This document shows positions 13,849-42,742 of a DNA stretch of 64,000 nt, one piece after another. The stretch spans positions 1-64,000 of the forward strand of contig REBU01000063.1 in the NCBI GenBank assembly GCA_007692585.1, in the 5' to 3' direction. The DNA comes from Paracoccaceae bacterium. Its GTDB lineage: Bacteria; Pseudomonadota; Alphaproteobacteria; Rhodobacterales; Rhodobacteraceae. Within the stretch, counting starts at the first letter, position 1; the number at the start of each line of letters is the position of its first letter. A model generated the notes under the pieces. It worked only from the letters and a program-made list of their open reading frames with translations. It was not told the origin of the DNA and ran no database searches. A program made the position numbers and the translations under genes.

Positions 13849-15150
13849 TCACATGAAGCGGTTGACGAGGTTTTCCAACTTCTCCTGTTTGCCAGAGCGG
13901 GGCTGCGGGTCAACCCCCTGCGCCAGAACATCGGCTGTGATCTGCGCCAGATCACTGCGCAACATCGCCTGCGCCTCCGCCGTGTTCCAGCCCGCATAGC
14001 GCGCCCCGCGCGCCGCTTCCAGCCGCCCGTCTTCCAGCATCAAAGCCGCCGCCCGGAAGCCGCGCGCGCAGACATCCATCGCGCCTGCATGTGCCACGAT
14101 CAGATCTTCCGCATCCAGCGACTGGCGGCGCAGCTTGGCGTCGAAATTCGTGCCGCCCGTGGTGAAACCGCCCGCGCGCAGAATCTCGTAATAAGCCATG
14201 GCGACTTCGGGCATGTTGTTGGGGAACTGGTCTGTGTCCCAACCCGACTGGTAATCATTGCGGTTCATGTCGATGGAGCCGAACACCCCAAGACTTGCCG
14301 CCATCGCGATCTCATGCTCGAAACTATGGCCTGCAAGGATCGCATGGCCCTGTTCGATATTCACCTTGACCTCGCGCTCCAGCCCGAATTTCTGCAAGAA
14401 GCCGTAAACCGTCGCCACATCGTAATCATATTGATGCTTCGTCGGCTCCTGCGGTTTCGGCTCGATCAGGATCGCGCCCTTGAAGCCGATCTTGTGCTTG
14501 TACTCGACCACCATCGACAGGAACCGTCCCATCTGCTCGCGCTCGCGGGCGAGGTCCGTGTTCAAAAGCGTCTCATAGCCCTCGCGCCCGCCCCAGAGGA
14601 CGTAATTCTCGCCCGCCAGCCGGTGCGTGGCATCCATGCAGGTCTTGACGGTGGCCGCACTGATAGCAAACACCTCCGGGTCGGGGTTGGTCGCGGCCCC
14701 CGCCATGTAGCGGCGATGGCTGAACAGATTGGCCGTCCCCCAGAGCAGTTTCGGCCCGCCCGCCGCCATCTTCTCGGCGAAATACTCGGTCATTTCTTCC
14801 AGATTGCGGGTGTTTTCCGCGAAACTCGCGCCTTCGGGGCGCATATCGGCGTCATGGAAGCAGAAAAACGGCACATTCAGGATGCGAAACATCTCGAAAG
14901 CCACATCGGCTTTCAGTTTCGCGTGCTCCATCGTATCGCCAAACCACGGACGCAGGAACGTCTGCCCGCCAAACGGATCGCCGCCGGGCCATGCGAAATT
15001 ATGCCAGTAGCAGACCGCGAAGCGCAGATGATCCTCCATGCGCCGCCCGAGGATGATCTCGTCAGGGTTGTAATGGCGGAAGGCGAAATCGGCGTCACTG
15101 TCCGGCCCCTGATAGGTAAGCGCGGGGATGCCTGCGAAAAAATCGGTCAT
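13849..15150 (-). CDS. xylA: Xylose isomerase
   Basis: This enzyme converts D-xylose to D-xylulose. The 433-residue length and the N-terminal insert place it in the class II (long) family. Visible signatures are [16 protein letters not shown], the catalytic His segment [13 protein letters not shown] (about 94-106), the metal-site segment [18 protein letters not shown] and the late [10 protein letters not shown]. Its start overlaps the xylB stop by 4 nt (ATGA), so the two are translationally coupled. Confidence 0.97.
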
Positions 15151-16586
15151 GTCAGATCCTTGATGGCTGTTTGTGCGGCCTTGAAGCGCGCATGTGTGTC
15201 TGTGAAGGCTTGGGTCAGGCCCGGCTGAGGGGCGATTTCACGCGCGATGGGCGGCAGAGGCATGGCCTCAGCGCCGGCACCTGTCGCAGCCATCAGCCCC
15301 AGCCGCGCGGCCCCCAGCGCCGCGCCATAATCGCCCGCTTCGGGCACGAGGATCGGCAGGTCCATCGCAGTCGCCAGCGCCGAAAGCCAGTAGTCCGACC
15401 GCGCGCCCCCCCCTGCCGCGATCAGCGTCTCCAGCCGCGTGCCGGTCGCGGCCAGCGCGTCCTGACAGTCCTTCAGCGCGAAGACGACGCCTTCGAGCAC
15501 CGCGCGGGTCGCGGCCTCGCGGTCGGTCGCGTGCTCCAACCCGACAAAAGCCCCGCGAATACTGGCGGAATTGAGCGGCGTGCGCTCGCCACCCAAGTAA
15601 GGCAGGAACAGTGCGCGGCCAGGGGCTTGCAGCGGCCCCAGATCGGCCGTCAGCGCGGCAGGCGTGTCCCCTGCGATCCGCGCAAACCAGTTCAGCGCGT
15701 CGGTGGCAGCAAGGATCACCCCCATCTGGTGCCATGTGCCGGGAAGCGCGTGGCAGAAGCTGTGCACCGCCGTCTCCGGCGCAGGCGCATAGCCGTCTGT
15801 CGCGGCGAAAAGCACCCCCGAGGTGCCGAGGCTTACAAACCCCTGCCCGCCCCGCGCGACGCCGAGGCCAATGGCGGTCGCCGCATTATCGCCCGCCCCA
15901 CCTGCGACCGGGATGCCAGCGGTCAGCCCGAACTCCTGCGCCAAATCCGCGCGCACATGACCCGACACGCCCGCGCCTTCGACCAGTGTTGGCATCTGGT
16001 CGCGTGTCATGCCAGACGCCGCCAGCAAGTCATCCGACCAGTCCCGCGCGCCGATATCCAGCCAGCTTGTGCCTGCCGCATCCGACTTTTCCGCGACATG
16101 GCCGCCCGTCAGCCAAAGCCGCAGATAATCCTTCGGCAAGAGCACCTTGGCCGCGCGCGCAAACAGATCTGGCTCATGCCGCGCCATCCAGACGAGTTTT
16201 GGCGCGGTGAAGCCCGGAAAGACGATATTGCCGCTGATCGCGCGAAACTGCGGGTCCGCGTCGAGCGCTGCGGCCTGCGCATGCGCGCGGGTGTCGTTCC
16301 ACAGGATGCAGGGGCGCAGCACGCGGTCGGACACATCCAGCACCGTCGCGCCATGCATCTGGCCCGACAGCCCGATGCCCGCAATCGCCGCCATGTCGAT
16401 CTGACTAGCGAGTGCGCGCAAAACGCCCTCTGCCGCTGTGATCCAATGGGCGGGGTCTTGCTCCGACCAGCCGGGATGGGGCCGCGCGACACTCAGCGGC
16501 GCGCTGGCCTCTGCCACCACAACCCCGCCATCGTCAATCACCAGCCCTTTCAGGCCGGATGTCCCAAGATCCAGTCCCAGATACAT
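15147..16586 (-). CDS. xylB: Xylulokinase
   Basis: This enzyme phosphorylates D-xylulose to xylulose 5-phosphate for the pentose phosphate pathway. It is a 479-residue FGGY-family kinase. The N-terminal phosphate loop is [29 protein letters not shown] follows near residue 80, and the C-terminal ATP-site segment [11 protein letters not shown] lies near 390. The ATG at 16586 shares one base with the xylG stop (TGATG); a GTG directly before it is the alternative start. It sits between the transporter genes and xylA. Confidence 0.95.
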
Positions 16587-17332
16587 CACGCAGCCTTTTC
16601 CGGCTTCTTGCCCATGATGATCATCGACAGAATGTCGTCTTCGGTCACATCCTCGACCCGCTCCGTGCCAATCAGCTGGCCGTTTTTCATCACCGACACC
16701 CGGTCACAAAGCTCCATCATCTCGCGCGTGTCATGGCTGATCAGGAAAATCCCAAGGCCCTGCGCCTTCAACTCCTTGATCAGATCGGCGACCATCTTGG
16801 TTTCATGCACGCCCAGCGCCGCTGTCGGCTCATCCATGATCAGGATCCGTGCGTTGAAATAGACCGCGCGCGCAATCGCCACGGATTGCCGCTGGCCCCC
16901 GGAGAGCGCGCTCACCGGCTCTGCGATCTTGCGGAAATTGGGGTTCAGCCGCGCCATGATCTTGCGCGTCTCGGACTCCATCCGGCTGTCATCGAGAAAG
17001 CCGAACATGGTGCGCAACTCCCGCCCCAGAAACAGATTCGCAGGCGCAGGCAGGTTATCGGCGAGCGCGAGCGTCTGGTGGATCGTCTCGATATTATAGG
17101 CACGCGCGTCGCGGGGGCTGTTGATCGTGGCCTTTTTGCCGTCGATCCAGATCTCGCCACTATCGGCGCGATACGCCCCCGACAGGATCTTGATCAGCGT
17201 CGATTTGCCCGCGCCATTATGGCCCAGAAGCCCCACGACTTCACCGGGATAAAGGTCCAGCGACACATCATCAACCGCCTGCACACCGCCGAAAGCGATC
17301 GAGAGATTGCGGATATCTACAAGTGGCGTCAT
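16586..17332 (-). CDS. xylG: Xylose ABC transporter ATP-binding protein (short, single domain)
   Basis: This ATPase powers the xylose importer. It has Walker [13 protein letters not shown], signature [14 protein letters not shown], Walker [13 protein letters not shown] and the H-loop [10 protein letters not shown]. At 248 residues it has a single nucleotide-binding domain. Classical XylG/RbsA ATPases are tandem proteins of about 500 residues, so this one resembles the short FrcA-like ATPases of alphaproteobacteria and probably works as a homodimer. It starts 3 nt after the xylH stop. Confidence 0.9.
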
Positions 17333-17335
17333 GGC

Positions 17336-18643
17336 TTATCCTTTCCCGGTGCGGCGGCGATAGATGATGTCGATCAGCACCGCGAGCACGAGCACCCCGC
17401 CCACGACGATATTCTGCAAGGGCGCATCGACGCCGACCATCGCCATGCCCGATTGCAGCGATTGCATGATCAACGCGCCCAAAATCGCGCCATAGATCGT
17501 GCCCAGACCGCCCGCGAGCGCTGTGCCGCCGATGACAGCTGCCGCAATCACGCGCAACTCGTCCAGCGTGCCGATATCGTTGGAATGGTTCGTCAACCGG
17601 GCCGAGGCCACCACCGCCGAGATCGCGCAGAGCGCGCCCATGATGGCGAAGACCTTGACCGTCAGCAGCCGCGTATTGATTCCCGACAGCTCCGCCGCCT
17701 GCGGATTGCCGCCCGCCGCGAAGATATAGCGCCCCAGCCGCGTCTTGCGCGCCACGATGGTCATCACGACCGCCACGACGATCAGCAGCAGCACCGAAAT
17801 CGGCAGGCCGTAAACTTCCGTATAGCCCTCGGGCATGACCTCGCCGCGCGCCTCGAATTCGCGGCGCAGACGGGCGACGGGCACTTCATAGGAATTCAGG
17901 ATCTTGATGAAGCCCAGAATCGCGCCCGCAATGATCCCCCCCAGCGCAAATTCAGCCCAGAGCGGCTTGACAGGAAACCCATGGCTGAGCTTGTCGCGCC
18001 GCTTCACCCAGAGCGCGCCCAGAGCGGCCAGCGTGGCGACGATCCCCAGCACCCAGGACCAGAACTCGCCCAGCGTGCCATTGATGCCGCCGAACATCTG
18101 AAATGTCGGGTCCAGCGGGCCAATCGTCTGCCCATTGGTCAGATACCAGCCGACATTGCGCCAGATCAGCAAGCCGCCCAAAGTCACAATAAAGGCCGGG
18201 ATCAGCAGATAGCCCGTCAGCCAGCCCTGAAACGCCCCGATCACCGCGCCTGTCACCAGCCCTGCGCCAATCGCCAGCCAGGGGATCATCGGATGCCCCA
18301 GCGGCAGGCCCAGATATTGCGGCAGCCACGCGGTCTGCATCATCGCCATGACCGCCGAACAGGTCGCCAGAAGTGCCCCCACCGACAGGTCAATGTGGCG
18401 CGTGACGATGACGAAAACCATGCCAGTCGCCATGATCGCCACGCTGACGCTCTGAATCGTCAGGTTGAAGATATTGCGCGGGGTCAGAAAGCGGCCATCG
18501 GTCAGCAGGTTGAAGACAACCAGCACAGCGATGAAAGCGCCGATCATGCCCAACAGGCGCGTGTCCAGTTCCAGCGTATCGGCAAGCCGGGGGCGGGCCG
18601 GTGCCTTGGATTTGGCAGCGGCAGAGGTGTCAGAGGTGTTCAT
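17336..18643 (-). CDS. xylH: Xylose ABC transporter permease
   Basis: This is the membrane permease of the xylose importer (BPD_transp_2 family), 435 residues with about ten hydrophobic segments. A long polar insert of roughly 60 residues between membrane segments (about 240-300, with VARLRREFEARGEVMPEG) is usual for alphaproteobacterial XylH. The C-terminal GGTALAGGLGTIYGAILGAL is the conserved ABC-contact region. The N-terminal 30 residues are Ala/Ser/Lys-rich and cytoplasmic. It lies between xylF and xylG on the same strand. Confidence 0.93.
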   Translation of the reverse strand: MNTSDTSAAAKSKAPARPRLADTLELDTRLLGMIGAFIAVLVVFNLLTDGRFLTPRNIFNLTIQSVSVAIMATGMVFVIVTRHIDLSVGALLATCSAVMAMMQTAWLPQYLGLPLGHPMIPWLAIGAGLVTGAVIGAFQGWLTGYLLIPAFIVTLGGLLIWRNVGWYLTNGQTIGPLDPTFQMFGGINGTLGEFWSWVLGIVATLAALGALWVKRRDKLSHGFPVKPLWAEFALGGIIAGAILGFIKILNSYEVPVARLRREFEARGEVMPEGYTEVYGLPISVLLLIVVAVVMTIVARKTRLGRYIFAAGGNPQAAELSGINTRLLTVKVFAIMGALCAISAVVASARLTNHSNDIGTLDELRVIAAAVIGGTALAGGLGTIYGAILGALIMQSLQSGMAMVGVDAPLQNIVVGGVLVLAVLIDIIYRRRTGKG

Positions 18644-18679
18644 GGGAAATATCCTGCCTTGGGGCGGGGAAACGCATCA

Positions 18680-18704
18680 GGGGCGCGCAACGCGCGCACG
18701 CCCC
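18680..18704 (-). promoter_or_regulatory. Intercistronic GC hairpin between xylF and xylH
   Basis: GGGGCG (18680-18685) pairs with CGCCCC (18699-18704), and further GCGCG/CGCGC pairing is possible inside. It lies in the 77-nt gap just after xylF. It has no T-run, so it probably stabilises the xylF message or weakens read-through into xylH. Confidence 0.5.
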
Positions 18705-18720
18705 CAGCGTCAGATCAGGC

Positions 18721-19746
18721 TTACTCGCAGGGCGCAGGGCCGCCGCTTACGCCCTGGCAGAGCGCTTCCAGGCTGATCCAGCCTGCATCAACCACCAGCG
18801 ACAGATTATCAGCTGTCACAGGCACCGGCTCAAGGAACATCGACACCATTTCCGTGCCAGCGGGCGAGGTCCACATGCCTGCGCCTTCGATATCCGTCAT
18901 CGCAGCGCCACCGGCCAGTTGCACGGCGATTTCAGCCGCATTGCGCCCCAGATCGCGCGCATCTTTCCACACGCTGACCGTCTGCGTGCCCAGCGCGATG
19001 CGGTTCAGCGCCGCGTGATCGCCATCCTGCCCGGACACCGGAATGCCCTGCATCCCCTGCGCGGTCAGCGCGGCCACAGCCCCGCCCGCCGTGCCGTCAT
19101 TCGACGCCACGACCGCATCCACATTGTTGTCCTGCGCGGTCAGGATCTGCTCCATGTTGCGCTGCGCATTCGCGGGCAGCCAGGCATCTGTATAGGCCTC
19201 ACCAACGATCACGATATCGCCTGCATCAATCGCGGCCTGCAGCACTTCCTGCTGGCCACCGCGCAGAAAATCGGCGTTCGGGTCCGTGGGCGAGCCCTTG
19301 ATCATCACATAGTTGCCGCTCGGTGCCTGCTCCAGCACAGCGCGGGCCTGCATCCGTCCGACTTCGACATTGTCAAAGGTCAGGTAGAAGGCGCGGCTGT
19401 CCTCGATCAGGCGGTCATAGGCGACAACGGGAATACCCTCATCGGCGGCGGCCTGCACAGCCGGTCCAATCGCGGCGGCGTCCTGCGCCAGAACGATCAG
19501 CGCATCCACGCCCTGAGCGATCAGGCTTTCAATGTCGGACAGCTGCTTGGACGCGGAAGATTGCGCATCGGCTGACACATAGCTCGCGCCAGCTGCATCA
19601 AGCGCGGCGCGGATCGCGGCCTCGTCCGTCTGCCAGCGCTCTTCCTGAAAATTCGACCAGCTCACACCGATGGTCAGCGAATCGGCCCATGCCGCCGAGC
19701 TGAAGCCGAGCGTCGCGGCAATTGCCGCGGTCATGATCTTGTTCAT
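18721..19746 (-). CDS. xylF: D-xylose ABC transporter substrate-binding protein
   Basis: This is the periplasmic sugar receptor of the xylose importer (periplasmic-binding-protein-4 / RbsB-like family), 341 residues. A Sec signal (MNKIMTAAIAATLGFSSAAW, cut near A-D) is followed by SLTIGVSWSNFQEERWQTDE, the start typical of XylF. GVDALIVLAQDAAAIGPAVQ and VVASNDGTAGGAVAAL are sugar-pocket segments of the family. It is the first gene of the leftward xylF-H-G-B-A operon, divergent from the ROK regulator. Confidence 0.94.
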   Translation of the reverse strand: MNKIMTAAIAATLGFSSAAWADSLTIGVSWSNFQEERWQTDEAAIRAALDAAGASYVSADAQSSASKQLSDIESLIAQGVDALIVLAQDAAAIGPAVQAAADEGIPVVAYDRLIEDSRAFYLTFDNVEVGRMQARAVLEQAPSGNYVMIKGSPTDPNADFLRGGQQEVLQAAIDAGDIVIVGEAYTDAWLPANAQRNMEQILTAQDNNVDAVVASNDGTAGGAVAALTAQGMQGIPVSGQDGDHAALNRIALGTQTVSVWKDARDLGRNAAEIAVQLAGGAAMTDIEGAGMWTSPAGTEMVSMFLEPVPVTADNLSLVVDAGWISLEALCQGVSGGPAPCE

Positions 19747-24386: not shown

Positions 24387-25907
24387 ATGAACCAGATGAC
24401 CCAAGCTGATTTCCGCACATCATCGCCTTTCCGCGAGCGCTATGGCAATTTCATCGGTGGCAAATTCGTCGAGCCCGTGAACGGGCGCTACATGGACAAC
24501 ATCACGCCGATCACCGGCCAGAAAGTCTGCGAAGTCGCACGCTCGGACGCCGCTGACATCGAACTCGCGCTCGATGCCGCACATGCCGCGAAGGACGCCT
24601 GGGGCAAGACCTCTGCGACCGAGCGCTCGAACATCATTCTGCGCATCGCCGACCGTCTGGAGCAAAACCTCGACCTGCTGGCCGCCGCCGAGACATGGGA
24701 TAACGGCAAGCCCATCCGCGAGACGACCAATGCCGATATCCCGCTGGCCGTGGACCATTTCCGCTATTTCGCGGGCGTGTTGCGCGGGCAGGAAGGCACC
24801 ATGTCGCAGATCGACAATGACACGGTCGCCTATCACTTCCAGGAACCGCTCGGCGTTGTCGGCCAGATCATCCCGTGGAACTTCTCGATCCTGATGGCGG
24901 CATGGAAACTCGCCCCGGCCCTGGCCGCGGGCAACTGCATCGTCCTCAAGCCCGCCGAGCAGACCCCGGCGGCAATCCTTGTGCTGGCGGAGCTGATCGC
25001 AGACCTGCTGCCTGCCGGTGTGCTGAACATCGTAAACGGTCTGGGCGCGGAAACCGGCGATGCGCTGGCGCGTTCGAACCGGATCGCCAAGATCGCCTTC
25101 ACCGGCTCGACCGCGACAGGCCGCAAGATCATGGAAGCCGCAACCGTCAACCTGATCCCGGTCACGCTGGAACTGGGCGGCAAGTCGCCGAACATCTTCT
25201 TCTCCGACATCATGGCGCAGGATGATGCGTTCCTCGACAAGGCCGTGGAAGGGTTCGTGCTCTTTGCCTTCAACCAGGGCGAAGTCTGCACCTGCCCGAG
25301 CCGCGCGCTCATTCAGGAAGACATCTACGAGGAATTCATCGCGCGCTGCATCGCACGGGTGAAAGCCATCAAGCAGGGCGACCCGCGCGACATGAACACG
25401 ATGCTGGGCGCGCAGGCCTCCAAGCAGCAGCATGACAAGATCATGTCCTATTTCACCATCGGTGTGGAAGAAGGCGCGGAAGTGCTGACCGGTGGCGCCT
25501 CGGCCAAGATGGACGGCGATCTCGAAGGCGGCTTCTACATCGAGCCCACGATCTTCAAGGGCCACAACAAGATGCGCGTGTTCCAGGAAGAAATCTTCGG
25601 CCCGGTCGTGTCGGTGACGACCTTCAAGACCGAAGAAGAAGCGCTCGCAATCGCCAATGACACGATGTACGGCCTCGGCGCGGGTGTCTGGACCCGCGAC
25701 GGCACGCGCGCCTACCGCTTTGGCCGCGCAATCGAAGCAGGCCGCGTCTGGGTGAACAACTACCACGCTTACCCGGCGCATGCGGCTTTCGGCGGCTACA
25801 AGCAGTCGGGCATCGGGCGCGAAAACCACCGCATGATGCTGGATCACTACCAGCAGACCAAGAACATGCTGGTCAGCTACAACCCCAACAAGCTCGGCTT
25901 CTTCTAA
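24387..25907 (+). CDS. NAD(P)-dependent aldehyde dehydrogenase (AcoD/ExaC-like)
   Basis: This 506-residue aldehyde dehydrogenase resembles the acetaldehyde/AcoD group, which oxidises short aldehydes to acids. [20 protein letters not shown] is the cofactor-site segment. FTGSTATGR (about residues 233-241), the catalytic Glu in [12 protein letters not shown] (about 265) and the nucleophilic Cys in [12 protein letters not shown] (about 302) are all present. The C-terminal end [10 protein letters not shown] is typical of this subgroup. It converges on the glyoxylate cluster and is separated from it by a terminator. The real substrate is not determined by the sequence. Confidence 0.9.
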
Positions 25908-25928: not shown

Positions 25929-25955
25929 CGCCGCCCCCCCTCACCGGGGGCGGCG
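25929..25955. terminator. Bidirectional terminator
   Basis: A 10-bp perfect stem CGCCGCCCCC / GGGGGCGGCG has a TCACC-containing loop and is followed by a short T-containing tail. It lies between the convergent aldehyde dehydrogenase and mct genes. Confidence 0.75.
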
Positions 25956-25962
25956 TCTTGCA

Positions 25963-27207
25963 TTACTCGGCAGCCTTCGCAAACACCCCGTTCAGGCGCG
26001 GCCCGGTGACAATACCCTCGTCAAACAGCGCGCCGATTTCCCCCGATTGCAGCCCGGCCACATCCGCGAGCACTTCTTCAGTATGCGCGCCCAATGCGGG
26101 GGCCGGGACCGGGGCCTGCCGCGCGATCTCGGAGAAGCTGAGCGGCGAGGCAGGGGTCGGGTAGCTACCGATCCCCGGCTGATCGACCATATGAAACATC
26201 GGGTTTTCGGTCGACAGGTCCGGGTCTTCGCGCACTGCTTCCGCGAAGCTGCGGAACTGTGACCAAGTGACCCCGCCCGCGTCGAAGCTCTTCGCGAAAT
26301 CCGCAACCTTGTGGCTTGCGAAAAACGGCGCCAGCACTTCCGTGATCACCGCCCGGTGACGGAAGCGTGCGCCCTCATGGGCAAGGCTTTCGCCCAGACG
26401 GGCCTCCAGTGCCGCCATGGCGTCAACGGTCCCCGTGGCCTTCACCAGCCCCCGCCACTGCCGGTCGGTCAGCCCGATCACCATGACGCGCGCGCCATCG
26501 CCGCAGATGAAATCCTGCCCATAGCCGCCATAAAGCGCATTGCCGTATTTGGGCCGGTCGGTGCCGTTCACCGCCACTTCCCCGATGATCCCCAGATTGC
26601 CCAGCATCGCCGCCGCCGCATCTTTCAGCGAAAACAGCACTTCCTGCCCCTGGCCCGTGCGCAGCCGGTGACGCTCTGCCGCCAGAAGCGCCGTCACGGC
26701 CATGTTGCCTGCGATGCAGTCCCATGCGGGCAGCACATGGGCCACAGGCTCGCTCGACCCCTCCGGCCCGGTCGCGGTGGGAAAGCCCAAAGACGGATTG
26801 ACCGAATAATCCACTGCCGCGCGCCCATGCCGGTCGCCCAGTAGTGCCACCATCACCAGATCGTCACGATGTCGCGAAAGGGTTTCATGATCCATCCAGC
26901 CACGCACGCGCAGATTGGTCAGAAACAGCCCCGCATCGTCGCCCGGCGCGGTGATGATCCGCGTGATCAGCTCGCGCCCCTTTGGCGATTTCATATCGAC
27001 CGCGACGGATTTCTTGCCCTTGTTCAGCCCGGCCCAGAACAGGCTCTGCCCATCCCCGGTCACAGGCCAGCGCGCCGAGTCGAGGCCCCCTTCGATCCGA
27101 TCAAAACGGATCACTTCGGCCCCCATCTGCGCCAGCGTCATGCCCGCGAGCGGGATCGCCACAAAAGCCGAGCCCTCGACCACGCGCATCCCTTTGAGAA
27201 TTCCCAT
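25963..27207 (-). CDS. mct: Mesaconyl-CoA C1-C4 CoA transferase (2-methylfumaryl-CoA isomerase)
   Basis: This is a family III CoA transferase, 414 residues. It moves CoA within mesaconyl-CoA from C1 to C4. The whole sequence resembles Chloroflexus Mct as I remember it, including EGSAFVAIPLAGMTLAQMGA, RWPVTGDGQSLFWAGLNKGK, HVLPAWD and the C-terminal VDQPGIGSYPTPASPL. Asp163 in the PAWD segment matches the expected catalytic Asp. The start at 27207 begins the homology and lies 4 nt after the meh stop. It is the last gene of the leftward cluster. A different CaiB-type activity is possible but less likely with meh adjacent. Confidence 0.85.
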   Translation of the reverse strand: MGILKGMRVVEGSAFVAIPLAGMTLAQMGAEVIRFDRIEGGLDSARWPVTGDGQSLFWAGLNKGKKSVAVDMKSPKGRELITRIITAPGDDAGLFLTNLRVRGWMDHETLSRHRDDLVMVALLGDRHGRAAVDYSVNPSLGFPTATGPEGSSEPVAHVLPAWDCIAGNMAVTALLAAERHRLRTGQGQEVLFSLKDAAAAMLGNLGIIGEVAVNGTDRPKYGNALYGGYGQDFICGDGARVMVIGLTDRQWRGLVKATGTVDAMAALEARLGESLAHEGARFRHRAVITEVLAPFFASHKVADFAKSFDAGGVTWSQFRSFAEAVREDPDLSTENPMFHMVDQPGIGSYPTPASPLSFSEIARQAPVPAPALGAHTEEVLADVAGLQSGEIGALFDEGIVTGPRLNGVFAKAAE

Positions 27208-27211
27208 CGCC

Positions 27212-28096
27212 TCATCCCTCCCATTCAAATCGGGCTTGCAGCCCTTGGTGACCGGCTTCGGCCACAGTGCAGAGCCTGAGCGCCCCCGGCCCGTCCGCTT
27301 CGGCTTGCAGATGCAATTGCCCGTCAAACATCGGATGCACACCGCGGAAGCTGAACCGCGTGGGCGTGGCCCCGGTGTGGCGCATCGCCGCTTCCATCAG
27401 CAGCGTCGCCTGCATCGGCCCATGCACGACCAGGCCGGGATAGCGTTCTGCCCCGGTCGCATAGTCACGGTCGTAATGGATGCGATGCGCATTATAAGTC
27501 GCAGCCGAATAGCGAAACAGCCGCACCGGGCCGACCTCGACCGGTTCGCTGAAAATCGGGGCCTCCGGGGCCGGGATCGCACGCGGCGCGCGGAAGCTGT
27601 CGGGGATCGGCAGATAGACGATATCCTGTTCCTCGCGGATCTGCGCGCCGCCCTCGCCGCGCAGGTCATGGCCCACACGCACGAAGGCCATGTCGCCGGT
27701 GTGGCCTGTCTTGAAATCGACGCTCAGGATTTCCGAGCGTTTGGTGATCGTCTCGCCAATGGCAAAACGGCCCTTGAAGGACAGCTTCCCCCCCGCCCAC
27801 ATGCGCCGGTTGAAGGGCAGAGGCGGCAGGAACCCCCCGAGCTTGGGGTGACCATCCGTCGCGATCTCTGCAATCGGCACGAATTCGGGAAAGGCCACCC
27901 AATGCCACAGCACCGGCAGCACCGCGCCTGTGTGAATCGGCGGTTGGGGGGCGGCTGGATGTCCCAGCGCCCCCATGACCATGCCTGCAAATTCCGGGCT
28001 GACCGCGCCTGTGCGGCTCTCGACCCGCCCGACCCAGGATTGCGCCTGCTCAGGCGTCGCGGCTTCGCCCGTCATGGGCGCGTCGGGTTTGCTCAT
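27212..28096 (-). CDS. meh: Mesaconyl-C4-CoA hydratase (3-methylfumaryl-CoA hydratase)
   Basis: This is a double hot-dog (MaoC-like/FAS1-type dehydratase) protein of 294 residues, which adds water to mesaconyl-C4-CoA to give citramalyl-CoA. Typical segments are GGFLPPLPFNRRMWAGG (about 87-103), EEQDIVYL (about 155-162) and the hydratase motif in the second half, YNAHRIHYDRDYA followed by YPGLVVHGPMQATLL. It overlaps mtkB by 4 nt and is followed 4 nt later by mct, so the two are co-translated. Together they form the glyoxylate-branch pair known from the 3-hydroxypropionate bi-cycle. Confidence 0.82.
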   Translation of the reverse strand: MSKPDAPMTGEAATPEQAQSWVGRVESRTGAVSPEFAGMVMGALGHPAAPQPPIHTGAVLPVLWHWVAFPEFVPIAEIATDGHPKLGGFLPPLPFNRRMWAGGKLSFKGRFAIGETITKRSEILSVDFKTGHTGDMAFVRVGHDLRGEGGAQIREEQDIVYLPIPDSFRAPRAIPAPEAPIFSEPVEVGPVRLFRYSAATYNAHRIHYDRDYATGAERYPGLVVHGPMQATLLMEAAMRHTGATPTRFSFRGVHPMFDGQLHLQAEADGPGALRLCTVAEAGHQGLQARFEWEG

Positions 28097-28989
28097 GCGG
28101 CTTGCCTCACGCCCAGGACGCGGGCGATGGTTTCGCCCATGGCCGACGGGGTAGGCGCGACCGTGATGCCCGCCGCCGACAGGATTTCCACCTTTTCCTG
28201 CGCCGATTCCCCAAAGGCCGAGATGATCGCCCCCGCATGGCCCATCTTGCGGCCCTTGGGTGCCGACAGCCCCGCGATATAGGCCACGACCGGTTTCGTC
28301 ATGTGATCGCGCGCATAGGCCGCCGCCTCAGCTTCCTGCGGGCCGCCGATTTCACCGATCATCATCACCGCGTCTGTGTCAGGGTCATTCTCGAACAGCT
28401 CCAGAATATCGCGGAAGCTCGACCCATTGATCGGATCACCGCCGATACCGACCGAGGTCGACACACCGATGCCCAAGCTTTTCATCTGGCTGGCGGCCTC
28501 ATAGCCCAGCGTGCCCGACCGGCCCACGATGCCCACGCGACCGGGCAGGTAGATCGCGGGCGGCATGATCCCCATGAACCCCTTGCCGGGCGAGATCACA
28601 CCGGCGCAATTCGGCCCGATGAAGCGCATCTTGCGCGCGGCCGGGAAGCGACGCAGGAAGCGCTTGACCTTCATCATGTCCTGCGAGGGGATGCCATCGG
28701 TCACGCAGACCGCGAATTCCAGCCCGGCTTCCGCCGCTTCCATGATCGCATCCGCCGCACCGGGCGGCGGCACGAAAACGAGCGAGGCTTGCGCGCCCAC
28801 GGCTTCGACCGCTTCCGCGACCGTGTTGAAGATCGGGCGGCCCAGCACGGTTTCACCACCGCGACCGGGGGTCACACCGCCCACGACATTGGTGCCGTTC
28901 CTGATCATGTCTTCGGCATGGAACTGGCCGATGCGGCCCGACATGCCCTGGACGATGATGCGCGTATCTTCTTGAATCAGAATAGACAT
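28093..28989 (-). CDS. mtkB: Malate-CoA ligase (malate thiokinase) alpha subunit
   Basis: This is the CoA-binding and phospho-His subunit of an ADP- or GDP-forming acyl-CoA ligase, 298 residues. The N-terminal CoA-binding domain has IVQGMSGRIGQFHAEDMI and GGVTPGRGG. The phosphorylated His lies in GRKMGHAGAIIS (about residue 252). The sequence is closer to the Methylobacterium MtkB I remember than to SucD, and the neighbours (mclA, sgaA) support malate as substrate. Succinate-CoA ligase activity remains possible. GGAG precedes the ATG at 28989, which is 12 nt after the mtkA stop. Confidence 0.85.
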   Translation of the reverse strand: MSILIQEDTRIIVQGMSGRIGQFHAEDMIRNGTNVVGGVTPGRGGETVLGRPIFNTVAEAVEAVGAQASLVFVPPPGAADAIMEAAEAGLEFAVCVTDGIPSQDMMKVKRFLRRFPAARKMRFIGPNCAGVISPGKGFMGIMPPAIYLPGRVGIVGRSGTLGYEAASQMKSLGIGVSTSVGIGGDPINGSSFRDILELFENDPDTDAVMMIGEIGGPQEAEAAAYARDHMTKPVVAYIAGLSAPKGRKMGHAGAIISAFGESAQEKVEILSAAGITVAPTPSAMGETIARVLGVRQAA

Positions 28990-29001
28990 TTTCAGGCTCC
29001 T

Positions 29002-30171
29002 TCAGGCAGCAAGGCTGGGGCGGGATTTGACAGCCGTGGCAGCCGCCTCGGCCAATGTGTCAGCCGAAATCAGCGGCAGGCCGGAGTCGTTGATGATCCG
29101 GCGGCCTTCCTCGACATTGGTGCCGGCCAGACGCACCACGACCGGCAGCGTCAGTTTCAGCTCGCGGTAAGCCTGCACCACCCCCGACGCGACCCAGTCA
29201 CAGCGATTGATGCCCGCGAAGATATTGACCAGGATCACCGACACATTCGGGTCCGACAGCACGGTGCGAAAGGCCGCGACAACCCGCTCCGGGCTTGCGC
29301 CGCCACCGATATCGAGGAAATTCGCAGGCTCGCCCCCCGCCAGCGTGATCATGTCCATCGTCGCCATTGCCAGCCCCGCGCCATTGATGATGCAGCCGAT
29401 ATCGCCCTCAAGCCCAACATAGCTCAGCCCATGTTCAGCGGCGGCATCCTCGCGCGGGTCTTCCTGGCCGGGATCACGCAGCGCGGCCACTTCGGGGCGG
29501 CGGAACAGCGCGTTGGTGTCAAAGCTCATCTTCGCATCCAGCGCGATCAGATCGCCGTCACGCTTGATCACCAGCGGGTTGATTTCAACCATCGTCGCAT
29601 CAAGATCGCGGAACGCCCGGTAGCAGGCGCGCAGCACTGTCGCGAATTGGCCGACCTGCTTGCCGGTGAAGCCCAGCTTGAAGGCCAGTTCGCGCGACTG
29701 GAAGGGCAAAAGCCCCATCGCGGGGTCGATCACCATGCGGATCAGCGCGTCGGGCTGTTCTTCGGCCAGATCCTCGATCTCCATGCCGCCTTCGCGCGAC
29801 GCCACGATCATGATGCGCTCGGACTTGCGGTCCAGCACCAGACCCAGATAAATTTCCTTCGCGATATCCGTGGCTTCCTCGACCAGCAGACGATGCACCG
29901 GCTTGCCATTGGCGTCGGTCTGCTTGGTCACCAGATTGCGCCCCAGCAGCGACAGCGCGAAGGCGCTGACCTCGGCCTCATTGCGGCAAAGCTTCACACC
30001 GCCCGCAGCACCCCGCCCGCCCGCATGGACCTGCGCCTTGACGATAACGGGGAAACCCAGCTTGCGCGCTTCATGCATCGCCTGTTCGGGCGCGAAGGCG
30101 ATGCCGCCTTGCGGCACCGGCATGCCGATCCGCCCCAGAAGCTCCTTGGCCTGATGTTCGTGAATATCCAT
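29002..30171 (-). CDS. mtkA: Malate-CoA ligase (malate thiokinase) beta subunit
   Basis: This is the ATP-grasp subunit that activates malate to malyl-CoA, 389 residues. [20 protein letters not shown] opens the ATP-grasp domain, and [10 protein letters not shown] lies near residue 46. The segment [20 protein letters not shown] is characteristic of MtkA; SucC usually reads NALYR here. The ligase domain contains [13 protein letters not shown] and [14 protein letters not shown]. It is spaced 12 nt from both mclA and mtkB. Together with MclA it converts malate to acetyl-CoA and glyoxylate, the serine-cycle step. Confidence 0.87.
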
Positions 30172-30183
30172 GCTCCGATCTCC

Positions 30184-31158
30184 TTATTCGGCGGCTTTGG
30201 CAGGCGTGCCGCGCGCGGCAATCGCATCGGCCAGCGACAGCACATTCATCGCCATCTTCTCGGAGGCCGCGTCGATCATCTTGCCATCAAGCGCGGCCGC
30301 GCCCTTGCCCTCGGCCTCGGCCTTGCGCAATTCCTCGATGATGCGGCGTGCACGGGTGACCTCGACCTCGGGCGGGCTGAAGACCGTATTCGCCATCTCG
30401 ATCTGGCTGGGATGAATGGCCCATTTGCCCTCGAACCCCAGCGCGGCGGCGCGTTCCGCCGCCGCGATATAGCCATCGGGATCAGCGAAATCACCGAACG
30501 GGCCATCAAGCGCGCGCAGCCCGTAGGCGCGGCAGGAAATGATCATCCGCGACAGCGACGCATGCCACTGATCGCCCGGATAGGCCGGGTTCAGCCCGCC
30601 GATATTGACCGTGCGCGCCCGCATCGAGGCCGCGTAATCCGCCACCCCGAAATGCAGCGCTTCCAGCCGCGAGTCCGACGTCGCCGCATAGCGCGCGATC
30701 TCCTCGACATTGGCCATGCCCAGCGCCGTCTCGATCAGCGCCTCCAGCCCGACGCGCCGGGTCAGCCCGCAAGCCTGCTCAATCTGGTTGACCATCGCAT
30801 CGACCATATAAAGGTCGGACACGACGCCCAGTTTCGGGATCAGCAGCATATGCACGCGGTCGCCCGCCTGCTCCATCACATCGACCACATCGCGGTACAT
30901 ATATTGCGTGTCCAACCCGTTGATGCGCACGCTGACGGTCTTGCCCTTGGCTTCCCAGTCAATATCGTTCAGCGCCGCAATCGCATTCTTGCGCGCCTGC
31001 GCCTTCTCAGGCGGGGCGACCGCGTCTTCGAGGTCGAGAAACACCACATCCGCCGCACTTTCAGCGGCTTTTTCGATCATCGTGACATTGGACGCGGGCA
31101 CGGCCAGCGTCGAGCGCTGCAGGCGCTGCATGCGAAGGGGGAAAAGCGAATGGCTCAT
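30184..31158 (-). CDS. mclA: L-malyl-CoA/beta-methylmalyl-CoA lyase
   Basis: This CitE-like lyase of 324 residues cleaves malyl-CoA to acetyl-CoA and glyoxylate. Homologues also act on beta-methylmalyl-CoA and, in Chloroflexus, citramalyl-CoA. The TIM-barrel Mg2+ site is shown by VVFLDLEDAVAP (about 38-49) and LEALIETALGMANVEEIA (about 142-159). FGVADYAASMRAR and GFEGKWAIHPSQIE are further family signatures. It resembles the Methylobacterium serine-cycle MclA more than the Rhodobacter Mcl1 I remember. It lies 12 nt after sgaA and 12 nt before mtkA. Confidence 0.88.
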   Translation of the reverse strand: MSHSLFPLRMQRLQRSTLAVPASNVTMIEKAAESAADVVFLDLEDAVAPPEKAQARKNAIAALNDIDWEAKGKTVSVRINGLDTQYMYRDVVDVMEQAGDRVHMLLIPKLGVVSDLYMVDAMVNQIEQACGLTRRVGLEALIETALGMANVEEIARYAATSDSRLEALHFGVADYAASMRARTVNIGGLNPAYPGDQWHASLSRMIISCRAYGLRALDGPFGDFADPDGYIAAAERAAALGFEGKWAIHPSQIEMANTVFSPPEVEVTRARRIIEELRKAEAEGKGAAALDGKMIDAASEKMAMNVLSLADAIAARGTPAKAAE

Positions 31159-31170
31159 GAGGGTCGGTCC

Positions 31171-32370
31171 TTATTCAGCGGCTATGGCAAGGGCGGGGGC
31201 GGGGACATGGGCTGCGAAAACCTGTTGCGCGGCCGCAAGCCCCGCCCCCAGATCGACCCGCGCGCCGGCGGCTTTCAGCGACAGTTCAGCAATCCCGAGC
31301 GCGGTCAGACACATGCCCTCGTTCAGATCGCCCAGGTGACCGATGCGGAAAGCCCGGCCCGCCAGCGGCCCGAGGCCCCCGCCGAAATGCGTGTTGTAGC
31401 GGTTGCGGGCGATGTCGATCACCTCGCGCGCATCCACATCCTGCGGTGTGCGGATCGCGGTCACCGTGTCAGAGGCGAAAATCCGGTGCTCGGCCACAGT
31501 CTGCAGCCCCATCGCGGCCACACCCGCGCGGACGCCCTCGGCCAGACGGTGATGGCGGGCGAAGACATTGCCCAGACCCTCCGCCTGCAACCGCGCAAGC
31601 GCGGCGCGCAACCCATGCAGCAGCTGCGCAGGCGGGGTGAAGCAGAACGAACCGGCCTCATGCGCGTTCAGCATCGCCCGCAGGTCCAGAAAACTGCGCG
31701 GCAAGCTGCTGTCCTCCATCGCGGCAATTGCGCGCGGACTGGCAGCAAGGATGCCCAGACCCGCCGGGCACATCAGCCCTTTCTGGCTGCCCGCGATCGC
31801 CAGATCGACGCCCCAGGCGTCCATCTCGAAGCGGATCGAGCCGATGGAAGACACGCCATCGACAAACAGCAGCGCATCATGGAAACACGCATCCATCGCG
31901 TGCCGCACGCCCGCCACATCCGACGTGACGCCAGTCGCAGTCTCGTTATGGGTGACGAACACCGCCTTGATCTCGCCATGACGATCCGCACCCAGACGGC
32001 GCTCGATCTCGCGCACAGGGCAAGGCGCGCCCCAGGCCACGTCAATCGCCTCGACCCGCAGCCCCAGCGCCTGGGCCATCTGCGCCCAGAGCGTCGAGAA
32101 CTGCCCATGCCGCGCCATCAGCACCTTGTCACCGGGCGAAAGCGTGTTGACGATGGCCGCTTCCCAGGCGGCGGTGCCAGAGCCGGGCAGCAGGGCGATC
32201 CGGGCCGTGCGCGTGCCGAAGACCGGCTTCAACCCGTCCAGCACTGGCTGCAACAGCGCCGCGAAATCAGGCGCGCGGTGGTCCTGCATCGGCACGATCA
32301 TCGCGCGCTGAACATCAGCGGGCACATTGGTCGGGCCGGGAATGAAAAGATGGGCAGTGCCAGTCTGCAT
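31171..32370 (-). CDS. sgaA: Serine-glyoxylate aminotransferase
   Basis: This is a class V PLP aminotransferase of 399 residues that makes glycine from glyoxylate with serine as amino donor. FIPGPTNVP opens the protein, GSGTAAWEAAIVNTL lies near 64-78, VTHNETATGVTSD near 142-154, and the PLP Lys sits in AGSQKGLMCPAG (about 195). RIGHLGDLNE closes the active site. The family also includes aspartate-glyoxylate aminotransferase (BhcA), but no bhcBCD genes are present here. It is the first gene of the cluster; its ribosome-binding site (AGGGAGGA) lies in the loop of a strong hairpin. Confidence 0.86.
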   Translation of the reverse strand: MQTGTAHLFIPGPTNVPADVQRAMIVPMQDHRAPDFAALLQPVLDGLKPVFGTRTARIALLPGSGTAAWEAAIVNTLSPGDKVLMARHGQFSTLWAQMAQALGLRVEAIDVAWGAPCPVREIERRLGADRHGEIKAVFVTHNETATGVTSDVAGVRHAMDACFHDALLFVDGVSSIGSIRFEMDAWGVDLAIAGSQKGLMCPAGLGILAASPRAIAAMEDSSLPRSFLDLRAMLNAHEAGSFCFTPPAQLLHGLRAALARLQAEGLGNVFARHHRLAEGVRAGVAAMGLQTVAEHRIFASDTVTAIRTPQDVDAREVIDIARNRYNTHFGGGLGPLAGRAFRIGHLGDLNEGMCLTALGIAELSLKAAGARVDLGAGLAAAQQVFAAHVPAPALAIAAE

Positions 32371-32441: not shown

Positions 32442-32461
32442 TGTAAATGCGAGAGTTTACA
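32442..32461. promoter_or_regulatory. Inverted repeat, candidate ScfR-type operator 1
   Basis: TGTAAA (32442-32447) and TTTACA (32456-32461) are separated by 8 nt in the 158-bp divergent gap between sgaA and the regulator gene. The half-sites are the same as in the second site at 32482. Confidence 0.6.
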
Positions 32462-32528: not shown

Positions 32529-33935
32529 ATGCGCAAGACCTTCATCGGACCCCGCCTGCGCCGCTTGCGGCAGGACGCTGGCGAAACCCAAAGCGCCATG
32601 GCCAAAAGGCTAGGGATTTCATCGGCTTATGTGAATCTGCTGGAAAACAACCAGCGCTCGGTTTCGGTGACGATCCTGTTGCGGGTGTTCGAGCAATATG
32701 GTGTCGACTGGCATGACATTTCGGATGAAGGCACCAGCGCGCGGCTGGCCGATCTGCGCGGCGCGCTGCAAGACCCGCTCTTTGACGATACCCGCCCCGA
32801 TCTGCACGAATTGCGCGCCGCGCAGAATCACGCGCCCACGCTGATGGAAGCCTTCCTGCGCCTGCACCGCGCCTATCACAGCGCGACCGACCAGCTCATG
32901 GCGCTCGCCGCCCATCCCGGCGAGGCCGAGCCGATCTTCAACGCCTCGGCCGAAGGGGCCGTGCATCACTTCTTCCGCCGACAGCGCAATTACTTCCCGT
33001 CGCTGGAACGCGCCGCGACAGAACTTTGGGGCCATGAGGCCCCCGCAACCGATGACCTTTATGCCGCGCTCAAGACCCGCCTGAACCTGCGCCACGGCAT
33101 CACGGTGCGCGTCGTCCATGTCAGCGCCCTGCCCAAGACATTGCGCCAGTATTCTCAGGCCCGCGCCGAAGTCCTGCTGTCGGAAGCGCTCGATCATCCC
33201 AACCGGGTGTTTCAGCTGGTGCATGTGCTGGGGCTGATCGAATGCCGCACAATCCTCGAATCGCTGCTCGACAGCTCGGGAATCGAGGATGAACAGGGCC
33301 GCGTGCGCTGCAAGGTCGAGCTCGCCAATTACTTCGCGGCTGCCGCGCTGATGCCCTATGACGACTTTCTGACCGAGGCGCGCAACTCGAAATACGATTT
33401 CGACTATCTCGCGACCCGCTTCGGCGTCAGCTTCGAACAGGCCTGCCACCGCGCCACGGCCCTGCAACGCGAAGGCGCGCAGGGCGTGCCGTTCTTCTTT
33501 CTGCGCCTCGACAAGGCAGGCAATGTCACCAAACGCTTCAATGCCACCGATTTTCATCTGGCCGAATATGGCGGGGCCTGCCCGAAACTCGATGTGCACA
33601 TGACCTTCCGGCTGCCGGGCCGGATCGTGTCGCAAGTGGTAGAAATGCCTGACAGTTCACAATATTTCGTCTTCGCCCGCACTGTCGACCGACCGACTTT
33701 TGAACGCCACGGCCAGGACAACCGGCTGGCAGTCGCCATGGGCTGCACCATCGGGCATGCAACGGAAATCGGCTACGCCGAAGGGATCGCGCTGAACGGG
33801 GCGCAGGCCACCCCCATCGGGATCAACTGCCGCATCTGCCCGCGCGCAGGCTGCGAACAACGCGCCCATCAGGCCAGCGTGCTCAAGACCGCCGTTGACG
33901 AAAGCCGCCGCGGCGCCACGCGCTATGATGCCTGA
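32529..33935 (+). CDS. ScfR/RamB/PccR-type short-chain acyl-CoA metabolism regulator
   Basis: This 468-residue regulator has an N-terminal XRE helix-turn-helix (about 8-62, with RLGISSAYVNLLENNQRSVS). The central IrrE-like domain has lost the HExxH protease motif (FQLVHVLGLIE, about 229-239). The C-terminal DUF2083-type region ends with a Cys cluster, CRICPRAGCEQRA (about 436-448). Homologues (PccR, RamB) sense short-chain acyl-CoA and control propionate or acetate genes. Its divergence from sgaA makes it the likely regulator of the malyl-CoA/mesaconyl-CoA cluster. Direction of control is not known. Confidence 0.88.
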   Translation: MRKTFIGPRLRRLRQDAGETQSAMAKRLGISSAYVNLLENNQRSVSVTILLRVFEQYGVDWHDISDEGTSARLADLRGALQDPLFDDTRPDLHELRAAQNHAPTLMEAFLRLHRAYHSATDQLMALAAHPGEAEPIFNASAEGAVHHFFRRQRNYFPSLERAATELWGHEAPATDDLYAALKTRLNLRHGITVRVVHVSALPKTLRQYSQARAEVLLSEALDHPNRVFQLVHVLGLIECRTILESLLDSSGIEDEQGRVRCKVELANYFAAAALMPYDDFLTEARNSKYDFDYLATRFGVSFEQACHRATALQREGAQGVPFFFLRLDKAGNVTKRFNATDFHLAEYGGACPKLDVHMTFRLPGRIVSQVVEMPDSSQYFVFARTVDRPTFERHGQDNRLAVAMGCTIGHATEIGYAEGIALNGAQATPIGINCRICPRAGCEQRAHQASVLKTAVDESRRGATRYDA

Positions 33936-42610: not shown

Positions 42611-42742
42611 ATGCACGACCTGCTTTCTGTCTTTGCAACGCTTTACAGTTACCTGATCCTGTCCTTGGTCCTCGCTCTGGTCTTCGGCTTCAGAATCCAT
42701 GCAACCGAGCGCGACAGATCGGCCAGAAACGTTAACCACTGA
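42611..42742 (+). CDS. Possible small single-span membrane protein (43 aa)
   Basis: An ATG frame encodes 43 residues: MHDLLSVFATLY, then a strongly hydrophobic stretch (SYLILSLVLALVFGF), then a charged tail (RIHATERDRSARNVNH). This one-helix layout is typical of small membrane proteins. GGGA lies 9 nt before the ATG, a hairpin (AAGGCA/TGCCTT at 42572-42590) sits upstream, and a weak GAGC-GAA-GCTC hairpin with T5 follows the stop. The rest of the 498-bp gap (42345-42842) holds the Mur-like box, an AT-rich stretch and nothing else I can support. No homologue is recognised, and the call is tentative. Confidence 0.35.
   Translation: MHDLLSVFATLYSYLILSLVLALVFGFRIHATERDRSARNVNH

Follow-up and report, generated by a model that had tools for sequence, protein, structure and literature searches.

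A conserved operon joining malate thiokinase to Meh and Mct in Rhodobacterales and its possible role between mesaconyl-CoA and pyruvate

Why should genes for ATP-driven malate cleavage be joined to genes of the mesaconyl-CoA branch of the 3-hydroxypropionate bi-cycle in a member of the Rhodobacterales? The question arises from a Paracoccaceae bacterium (assembly GCA_007692585.1), in which positions 1 to 64,000 of contig REBU01000063.1 (the whole stretch analysed here, hereafter the window) carry six minus-strand reading frames at 25963-32370, in the order sgaA-mclA-mtkA-mtkB-meh-mct and with spacings from SgaA to Mct of 12, 12, 12, -4 and 4 nt. A first-pass annotation had described six leftward genes with this placement and spacing, which we reproduced exactly from the reading frames, and had taken them for one operon; additional support for the latter comes from tblastn, in which the seven-gene order including a divergent regulator recurs in 16 of 55 other loci. 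The operon is real and conserved, and our best reading is that it would be a malate-thiokinase version of 3-hydroxypropionate glyoxylate salvage in phototrophs possessing the ethylmalonyl-CoA pathway. As to its function, we consider it on balance probable that this anoxygenic phototroph uses it as a branch of central metabolism that conserves carbon, which would lead from mesaconyl-CoA to pyruvate and be coupled to ATP-driven malate cleavage.

In this proposed route, whose activities and direction of flux we infer from genomes, Mct would shift CoA within mesaconyl-C1-CoA to give mesaconyl-C4-CoA, Meh would hydrate the latter to (S)-citramalyl-CoA, and MclA, or else a different CitE-type lyase among the Mcl paralogues, would release pyruvate and acetyl-CoA, the same chemistry as described for Chloroflexus (PMC9813914, PMC3832036). 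Mesaconyl-C1-CoA could be fed directly by the ethylmalonyl-CoA pathway (Ccr, Ecm, Mcd), or from glyoxylate and propionyl-CoA through Mcl and a reversed Mch. MtkAB and MclA would convert malate to acetyl-CoA and glyoxylate at the expense of ATP, SgaA would take glyoxylate to glycine, and the route as drawn would contain no decarboxylating step.

Identity of the six gene products

The last gene, mct (25963..27207, minus strand), starts with the ATG at 27207, the mechanical reading frame beginning upstream at a GTG at 27342. Its product matches TIGR04253 along the full length of the model with 541.8 bits, shares 58% identity with the intramolecular enzyme of Chloroflexus, and finds its best PDB matches in 7xkg (E 1e-155) and 8apq (E 1e-152), the two Mct structures (PMC9813914). 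By the curated rule the protein is Mct-like, and on the strength of homology and residues we call it Mct. Asp165, Arg47, Tyr136 and Leu43 of Mct are described as catalytic, substrate-binding and intramolecular-type positions, with Leu or Ile at position 43 in intramolecular enzymes (PMC9813914), and D163, R46, Y134 and L42 of the window protein align with them. Asp165, Arg47 and Tyr136 are invariant in 51 Rhodobacterales rows, of which 43 have Leu and 8 have Met at position 43; the 11 Smt/CaiB rows show Asp165 in 11, Arg47 in 9 and Tyr136 in 1, with Asp at position 43 in 10 and a gap in 1. Because the Smt/CaiB rows mostly keep Asp165 and Arg47, only Tyr136 and Leu43 discriminate. Moreover, a quick tree of 64 rows nests the Rhodobacterales sequences within an Mct group that also holds those of Chloroflexota, Accumulibacter and Gemmatimonadota, split from Smt/CaiB with an SH-aLRT of 99, albeit with a long-branch warning for the outgroup rows and for locus L099. 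The split and the residue alignment together set aside the worry, voiced in the first-pass annotation, that Mct might cluster with unrelated CaiB enzymes. Among the named loci (the best 80 of 564 confirmed), the closest Mct is that of a Natronohydrobacter metagenome-assembled genome, at 91%. We take the organism to be of the Roseibaca/Natronohydrobacter type, a kind of bacterium that inhabits soda and salt lakes. A second Mct-like group of 40-42% identity (L099, L100, L101, L102), with no Meh beside it, also keeps Asp165, Arg47 and Tyr136, and genomes G151 and G021 carry both kinds.

Directly before mct lies meh (27212..28096, minus strand), whose product is a mesaconyl-C4-CoA hydratase-like protein with the Pfam domain FAS1_DH_region. 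At E 0.001 the PDB yields no match other than 8khg (E 9e-53) and 8huc (E 6e-52), both itaconyl-CoA hydratase entries. Meh adjoins Mct in 50 of the 51 other genomes with a kept Mct, at a distance of at most 37 nt in 49 of these and of 801 nt in the remaining one (G273, L098:2946-5828), a genome with a divergent Mct (48%), with RuBisCO, and with long branches in both trees.

The other four genes form the malate-activating half. SgaA (31171..32370, minus strand), the first gene, encodes a class V aminotransferase of the serine/aspartate--glyoxylate type (Pfam Aminotran_5) with 6pk1, a serine--glyoxylate aminotransferase, as its best PDB match (E 5e-101). On the BhcA model it reaches 517.5 bits, below the cut-off of 650; because the SgaAs of two other Mtk clusters (L194, 556.8 bits; L200, 577.5 bits) score higher, the BhcA score is not specific to BhcA, and on these SgaA scores we set aside a beta-hydroxyaspartate cycle, no search for bhcBCD having been made. 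MclA (30184..31158, minus strand) is a malyl-CoA lyase of the M. extorquens type, which matches 5ugr (E 4e-111) and 4l9y (E 6e-86) in the PDB, falls below the cut-offs of the lyase family models, and in the lyase tree shares one group with 5ugr and with Mcl1 of the same genome; 5ugr is a malyl-CoA/beta-methylmalyl-CoA lyase, which we take to be the M. extorquens enzyme. MtkA (29002..30171, minus strand) passes NF010647, malate--CoA ligase beta, with 649.6 bits (cut-off 604), and MtkB (28093..28989, minus strand), 12 nt downstream, passes two succinate--CoA ligase alpha models; an MtkA over its cut-off with an adjacent alpha subunit is the basis on which we call the pair malate thiokinase. The gene identities originally proposed are supported, that of Meh as a mesaconyl-C4-CoA hydratase-like protein.

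Feeder enzymes, distribution and phototrophy

Does the genome possess a source of mesaconyl-C1-CoA, as had been presumed at the outset? The assembly (3.26 Mb, 116 contigs, about 98% complete) encodes Ccr (621.7 bits, cut-off 378.55), two B12 mutases (Ecm/Mcm) of which one is Ecm-like by reading, an Mcd with 42% identity over 544 positions to a protein read as Mcd in the ccr-ecm cluster of Ca. Accumulibacter, an Mch-family protein on contig C45 that passes PF19315 with 57.9 bits and lies beside an Mcl2-type gene, and an Mcl1-type gene on C29. Only Ccr was judged by a curated cut-off for the enzyme itself, Ecm, Mcl1 and Mcl2 being named by reading; further names given by reading and not by a family search are Smt, propionyl-CoA carboxylase, hydroxypyruvate reductase, the Mcd of L185, gidA, parAB, rho and the xylose genes. 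The ethylmalonyl-CoA pathway set (Ccr, Ecm, Mcd, Mch, Mcl) is complete, and the second-cycle set of the 3-hydroxypropionate bi-cycle (Mct, Meh, Mcl, Mch, malate activator) is likewise present, with MtkAB and not Smt as the activator; we do not on that account count the genome as a member of the whole bi-cycle, whose first cycle runs through malonyl-CoA reductase and propionyl-CoA synthase. With Ccr-Ecm-Mcd and Mch present, a mesaconyl-C1-CoA source therefore exists elsewhere in the genome. The HpcH/HpaI family has four members, so that one trifunctional lyase is unnecessary, and the earlier idea of a single lyase for three C-C steps gives way to separate Mcl1- and Mcl2-type paralogues. The genome further encodes a pyruvate carboxylase domain in a 1161-residue frame on C109, and it gives two Photo_RC matches and no RuBisCO match at E 1e-40.

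To describe the distribution we used an order sample of 390 Rhodobacterales genomes from 139 genera, together with 55 further loci that were fetched. TIGR04253 is matched at E 1e-80 or better in 54 genomes (33 of the 139 genera), all of them Ccr-positive. Dropping G297 and G361, whose Mct-like proteins (40-42%) have no Meh, leaves 52 Meh-Mct genomes, a count that includes the window, keeps G273 with its distant Meh, and keeps G318 (L076), where no Meh was found. The Mtk module and Meh-Mct share one operon in 23 of the 52 and lie apart in 29. The 23 fused cases comprise the window, 16 other loci with all seven genes, and six that are incomplete or reach a contig end (L055, L076, L081, L082, L084 and L089, by tblastn gene order); G291 (L055) was counted as fused, its contig ending inside the operon and an MtkA match lying on another contig. 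MtkA exceeds its cut-off in 33 of the 52 (the 23 fused and 10 others), and in 19 there is none. Five of the 10 have a separate ScfR-SgaA-(MclA)-MtkAB operon with the operator described below (L196, L198, L199, L201, L202), and five a different MtkAB-MclA cluster (L194, L195, L197, L200, L203). Since ScfR stands directly before Meh-Mct, with no Mtk genes, in L110 and L155 among the named loci, and since class I Mcts are scattered in the Mct tree, we read the pattern as repeated loss of the first half from a joined operon, Meh-Mct being retained. At L076:4759-10248, where neither Meh nor ScfR was found, the genes run SgaA-MclA-MtkA-MtkB-Mct; Meh may lie elsewhere, or the operon may be decaying.

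A survey of the best 80 named loci reveals a Meh match in 67 and several other arrangements. Mct-Mcl-Mch occurs in seven (L170, L171, L175, L176, L179, L184, L185), preceded by Smt-like proteins in four of them (L170, L175, L179, L184), and Meh-lyase-Mct in 12, from Competibacteraceae, Rhodoplanes, Hyphomonadaceae and others, preceded by Smt-like proteins in five (L142, L146, L148, L157, L161); these CaiB-type proteins are 23-26% identical to Mct and are named Smt by reading. Taken with Mtk in the present operon, these arrangements suggest two or more separate unions of malate activation with the branch, through the unrelated enzymes Smt-like and Mtk. In five loci Meh-Mct is followed by a CitE-type lyase (L126, L127, L129, L131, L140). 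Lyase-family models gave RipC/Ccl as the best match, below cut-off, for the Meh-Mct-lyase loci L129 and L140, and citE first and RipC second, also below cut-off, for the Meh-lyase-Mct loci L160 and L146. In Rhodovibrio sodomensis (L114) MtkB-MtkA lie 1.4 kb away on the opposite strand, facing Meh-Mct. Two loci tie the ethylmalonyl-CoA pathway to the branch by gene neighbourhood: in Ca. Accumulibacter phosphatis (L185) a distance of 2-9 kb separates a ccr-ecm-mcd cluster from Meh/Mct/Mcl/Mch, and in a metagenome-assembled Rhizobiales genome (L140) Ccr and Meh, on opposite strands, are about 2 kb and two reading frames apart. The whole operon is carried by the named isolates Roseibaca ekhonensis and Mameliella alba (L113, L115), and the Meh-Mct pair by Marivita species (L122, L183), which opens the claim to tests in culture. 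Other observations at these loci are a 485-residue protein with a weak lyase match and frames reading as 2-oxoacid:ferredoxin oxidoreductase subunits at L185:1-18200, and, in two Rhodoplanes loci (L164:3838-5859, L165:5311-7494), a biotin-carboxylase-type frame that reads as propionyl-CoA carboxylase alpha and immediately precedes Meh-lyase-Mct.

Meh-Mct is associated with phototrophy. Photo_RC, our marker for puf, occurs in 161 of the 390 genomes; with two genomes of no listed genus left out (388 of 390 in the puf and RuBisCO statistics), it is found in 43 of the 52 Meh-Mct genomes and in 118 of 336 others (Fisher odds ratio 8.8, p 1.4e-10). The association holds by genus (25/31 vs 41/107, p 3e-5), in single-genome genera (9/10 vs 21/63, p 0.001), when one genome is drawn per genus (median p 5e-5), and in both classes (19/23 and 24/29); of the three traits compared across the order sample (Ccr, puf, RuBisCO), puf came second. 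A depletion of RuBisCO in Meh-Mct genomes was not significant, either overall (3/52 vs 48/336, p 0.12) or among puf-positive genomes (2/43 vs 14/118, p 0.24), counting matches at E under 1e-120 (51 genomes) and leaving uncounted the broken match of G188 (E 3e-96) and weaker RuBisCO-like matches. The puf association hints at a light-powered, carbon-sparing and possibly CO2-adding route.

Regulator, putative operator and neighbouring genes

Divergent from the operon, at 32529..33935 on the plus strand, lies a gene for an ScfR/RamB-type short-chain acyl-CoA regulator (Pfam ScfRs, Peptidase_M78 and HTH), nearest in NCBIfam to RamB with 361.5 bits, below the cut-off of 700. Between it and the operon a pattern match at 32442..32461 (minus strand) marks a putative operator, TGTNAR-N4-YGCR-N3-ACA. 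In its longer form, TGTNAR-N4-YGCR-N3-ACA-RC, the pattern is present in 27 of 27 regulator-operon intergenic regions and in 0 of 200 shuffled sets, figures that are a description and not a test, the pattern having been fitted after the sequences were seen and the genomes being related, with at least one present twice. The 27 regions include two loci in which only Meh-Mct follows. We predict that the protein would sense a short-chain acyl-CoA and act at this putative operator. Control by PpsR was set aside, the PpsR spacing TGT-N12-ACA differing from the TGT-N14-ACA found here. Elsewhere in the window the pattern matches once more, at 42628-42647 (minus strand), where no recognised partner gene lies nearby; this match may be due to chance.

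Just 3' of the Mct stop, a G+C-rich inverted repeat read from the sequence at 25930..25954 (minus strand) possibly marks the operon end; it has no T run, and the terminator scan reported nothing after Mct. Convergent with the operon is an acetaldehyde dehydrogenase gene, ExaC (24387-25907, plus strand; 925.7 bits in NCBIfam, cut-off 900), which as a source of acetate or acetyl-CoA may matter to the pathway. Genes reading as xylose isomerase, sugar kinase and sugar ABC transporter lie at 13849-19746 (minus strand). Because gidA-, parAB- and rho-like genes are read elsewhere in the window, it is probably chromosomal. A plasmid search returned 24 records, all under 60% identity, of which 22 are annotated as CoA or acyl-CoA transferases and two have no feature.

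Alternative readings and comparison with known systems

Several observations weigh against a carbon-conserving branch through Mct and Meh. The TIGR04253 score of the window Mct is under the equivalog cut-off of 725, which is passed by none of the 390 genomes of the order, while a Roseiflexus Mct scores 870.6, and its cork/adenine-site residues differ from Ile74, Arg75 and Phe101; the window protein shows Met, Lys, Leu and Arg at the cork-site positions, which also vary among 40 other named rows. Meh matches no NCBIfam model, the deep node of its midpoint-rooted tree gives no order relative to itaconyl-CoA hydratase and Chloroflexus-type Meh, and L076, with no Meh found by Mct, is the sole exception among 51. 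MclA is missing from the Mtk operons L081, L196 and L201, and SgaA is missing or a fragment in L082, L084 and L089. The operator pattern was found in none of 85 regions before a Meh with no preceding MtkB, five split genomes included (29 order-sample loci and 56 named loci from several phyla, with some genomes shared and some regions cut by contig ends), so that once separated the halves show no visible sign of shared control. Co-occurrence with Ccr is weak evidence because Ccr is nearly universal in the order (368 of 390). Finally, the puf statistics carry no species-tree correction, and shuffling puf within genera gives 40.5 +/- 1.2 against the 43 observed, with 209 of 5000 shuffles reaching 43, a weak result from four informative genera.

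What, then, feeds the route, and does it serve more than salvage? A purely Chloroflexus-like glyoxylate salvage, in which glyoxylate (from malate, glycolate or purines) and propionyl-CoA would give pyruvate and acetyl-CoA and the ethylmalonyl-CoA pathway would lend only Mch, is in our estimate a real if lesser possibility. It is favoured by the repeated pairing with malate activation, by the seven Mct-Mcl-Mch loci (four with Smt-like proteins before Mct), and by a propionyl-CoA-carboxylase-like frame, named from its start, upstream of Meh-lyase-Mct in the two Rhodoplanes loci; moreover, PMC9802188 uses the term glyoxylate salvage and stresses a shared operon. However, Mch, used as a query, has no match close to the operon at any one of the 55 loci, and in Rhodobacterales Meh-Mct apart from Mtk is the commoner state. 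Because 29 of the 52 genomes have no Mtk beside Meh-Mct and 19 no MtkA over the cut-off, a direct feed by ethylmalonyl-CoA pathway enzymes is no less likely; the same 19 genomes and the Meh-Mct-Ccl-like loci favour it, and both feeds can hold. The first-pass annotation had proposed propionyl-CoA and glyoxylate as the input, which stands as a possible feed and is weakened by these counts, whereas its net route from malate and propionyl-CoA to two acetyl-CoA and pyruvate makes chemical sense and has its parallel in the layout of Chloroflexus.

A further proposal, which we put forward tentatively and rather doubt, extends the branch to net carboxylation. RuBisCO-less Rhodobacterales phototrophs would run in nature the pathway designed in PMC10521678: driven by light, Ccr, Mcd, Mct, Meh and a citramalyl-CoA lyase would turn acetyl-CoA + CO2 + 2 NADPH into pyruvate. 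Where a genome has the Mtk operon and pyruvate carboxylase, as this one does, pyruvate carboxylation and ATP-driven malate cleavage would further close a cycle that yields glyoxylate (via SgaA glycine) from two CO2 with acetyl-CoA regenerated. The synthetic rGPS cycle reportedly has this topology, and malate cleavage and citramalyl-CoA reportedly feature in its rGPS-MCG form. CO2 fixation without RuBisCO occurs in some aerobic anoxygenic phototrophs, and in Dinoroseobacter shibae it is credited to the ethylmalonyl-CoA pathway (cited in PMC6052148 and PMC10674011).

Three other explanations seem to us less probable. That SgaA, MclA and MtkAB assimilate C1 units in serine-cycle methylotrophy, with Meh-Mct incidental, is unlikely: other MtkAB-MclA clusters do occur in Meh-Mct genomes, with SgaA in L194, L195 and L200, or with MclA on the opposite strand and no SgaA match in L197, L203 and L204, and two of three clusters inspected (L197, L200) have a hydroxypyruvate reductase by reading, but the ScfR-linked operon has no such gene, the parts of the complete ScfR-linked loci are nearer those of the window operon (SgaA 57-66%, MclA 77-83%, MtkA 73-77%) than these clusters are (54-55%, 59-74% and 62%), and G075 has both cluster kinds. 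We find it still harder to credit that the pair serves itaconate or mesaconate use, with Mct transferring CoA between molecules to a C5 diacid from outside, Meh an itaconyl-CoA hydratase and MclA or Ccl the citramalyl-CoA lyase. Itaconyl-CoA hydratase, the nearest solved structure to Meh, also hydrates mesaconyl-C4-CoA (PMC12290011), and the Meh-Mct-Ccl-like order resembles an itaconate cluster; yet Mct resembles the Chloroflexus intramolecular enzyme and has Leu at position 43, where 10 of 11 Smt/CaiB rows have Asp, and itaconate breakdown offers no place for MtkAB or SgaA. Least probable of all is reverse flow, in which pyruvate and acetyl-CoA would be condensed to citramalyl-CoA and converted through mesaconyl-C1-CoA to glyoxylate and propionyl-CoA by Mch and Mcl. 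Rhodospirillum rubrum is reported to have a citramalate cycle, and R. sphaeroides 2R has been proposed to have one (PMC8307300), but a 200-fold excess of pyruvate was used in PMC3832036, MtkAB would already supply glyoxylate from malate, and Ccr, Ecm and Mcd of the genome reach mesaconyl-C1-CoA.

The carbon-conserving branch remains the most probable reading; how far is it new? Among the open-licence papers listed in our searches we found none that describes a Mtk-Meh-Mct operon, Meh-Mct in Rhodobacterales or its association with phototrophy. The novelty for Rhodobacterales suggested in the first-pass annotation is weakened, Mct-type genes (2-methylfumaryl-CoA isomerase, detected in Actinobacteriota, Alpha- and Gammaproteobacteria; PMC9802188) and 3-hydroxypropionate-cycle enzymes in an aerobic phototroph (PMC10674011) being already in print. 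If true, the route would also be a natural enzyme source for CO2-fixing designs; the mesaconyl-C4-CoA to pyruvate end has been named as a module for use in synthetic pathways (PMC12290011). The designed reductive citramalyl/ethylmalonyl-CoA pathway likewise takes acetyl-CoA and CO2 to pyruvate via Ccr, mesaconyl-CoA and citramalyl-CoA, with a module given as 'acetyl-CoA + HCO3- + 2 NADPH + UQ to pyruvate' at -39 +/- 9 (PMC10521678), and the synthetic rGPS-MCG cycle likewise uses CCR with a second carboxylase, PEPC (PMC10176493); the former is a paper design and the latter a test-tube cycle, whereas the genes for the present, predicted route lie in natural genomes.

Among natural systems, itaconate/methylsuccinate clusters likewise hold a CoA transferase III, a hydratase of the same family and a CitE-type lyase, and share the last two steps; here, however, Mct is of the intramolecular type, and methylsuccinate isomerase and dehydrogenase were not read beside it, no search for them having been made. 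The serine-cycle malyl-CoA module (sga-mtkAB-mclA) has four of the six genes in common, MclA grouping with 5ugr, but the window operon lacks hydroxypyruvate reductase and is joined to Meh-Mct and ScfR. The second cycle of the 3-hydroxypropionate bi-cycle in Chloroflexus and Roseiflexus likewise clusters Mct, Meh, malyl-CoA lyase and a malate activator, which in Chloroflexus is succinyl-CoA:malate CoA transferase (Smt) according to a figure legend; here ATP-dependent MtkAB replaces Smt, Mch lies elsewhere with Mcl2, and an aminotransferase and a RamB-like regulator are added. Lastly, the ethylmalonyl-CoA pathway of the R. sphaeroides type has its feeder set (Ccr, Ecm, Mcd, Mch, Mcl1, Mcl2) in the same genome and in its textbook version ends at glyoxylate and propionyl-CoA, whereas phototrophy-linked Meh-Mct would, if our reading is true, provide a second exit that leads directly to pyruvate with no carbon lost.

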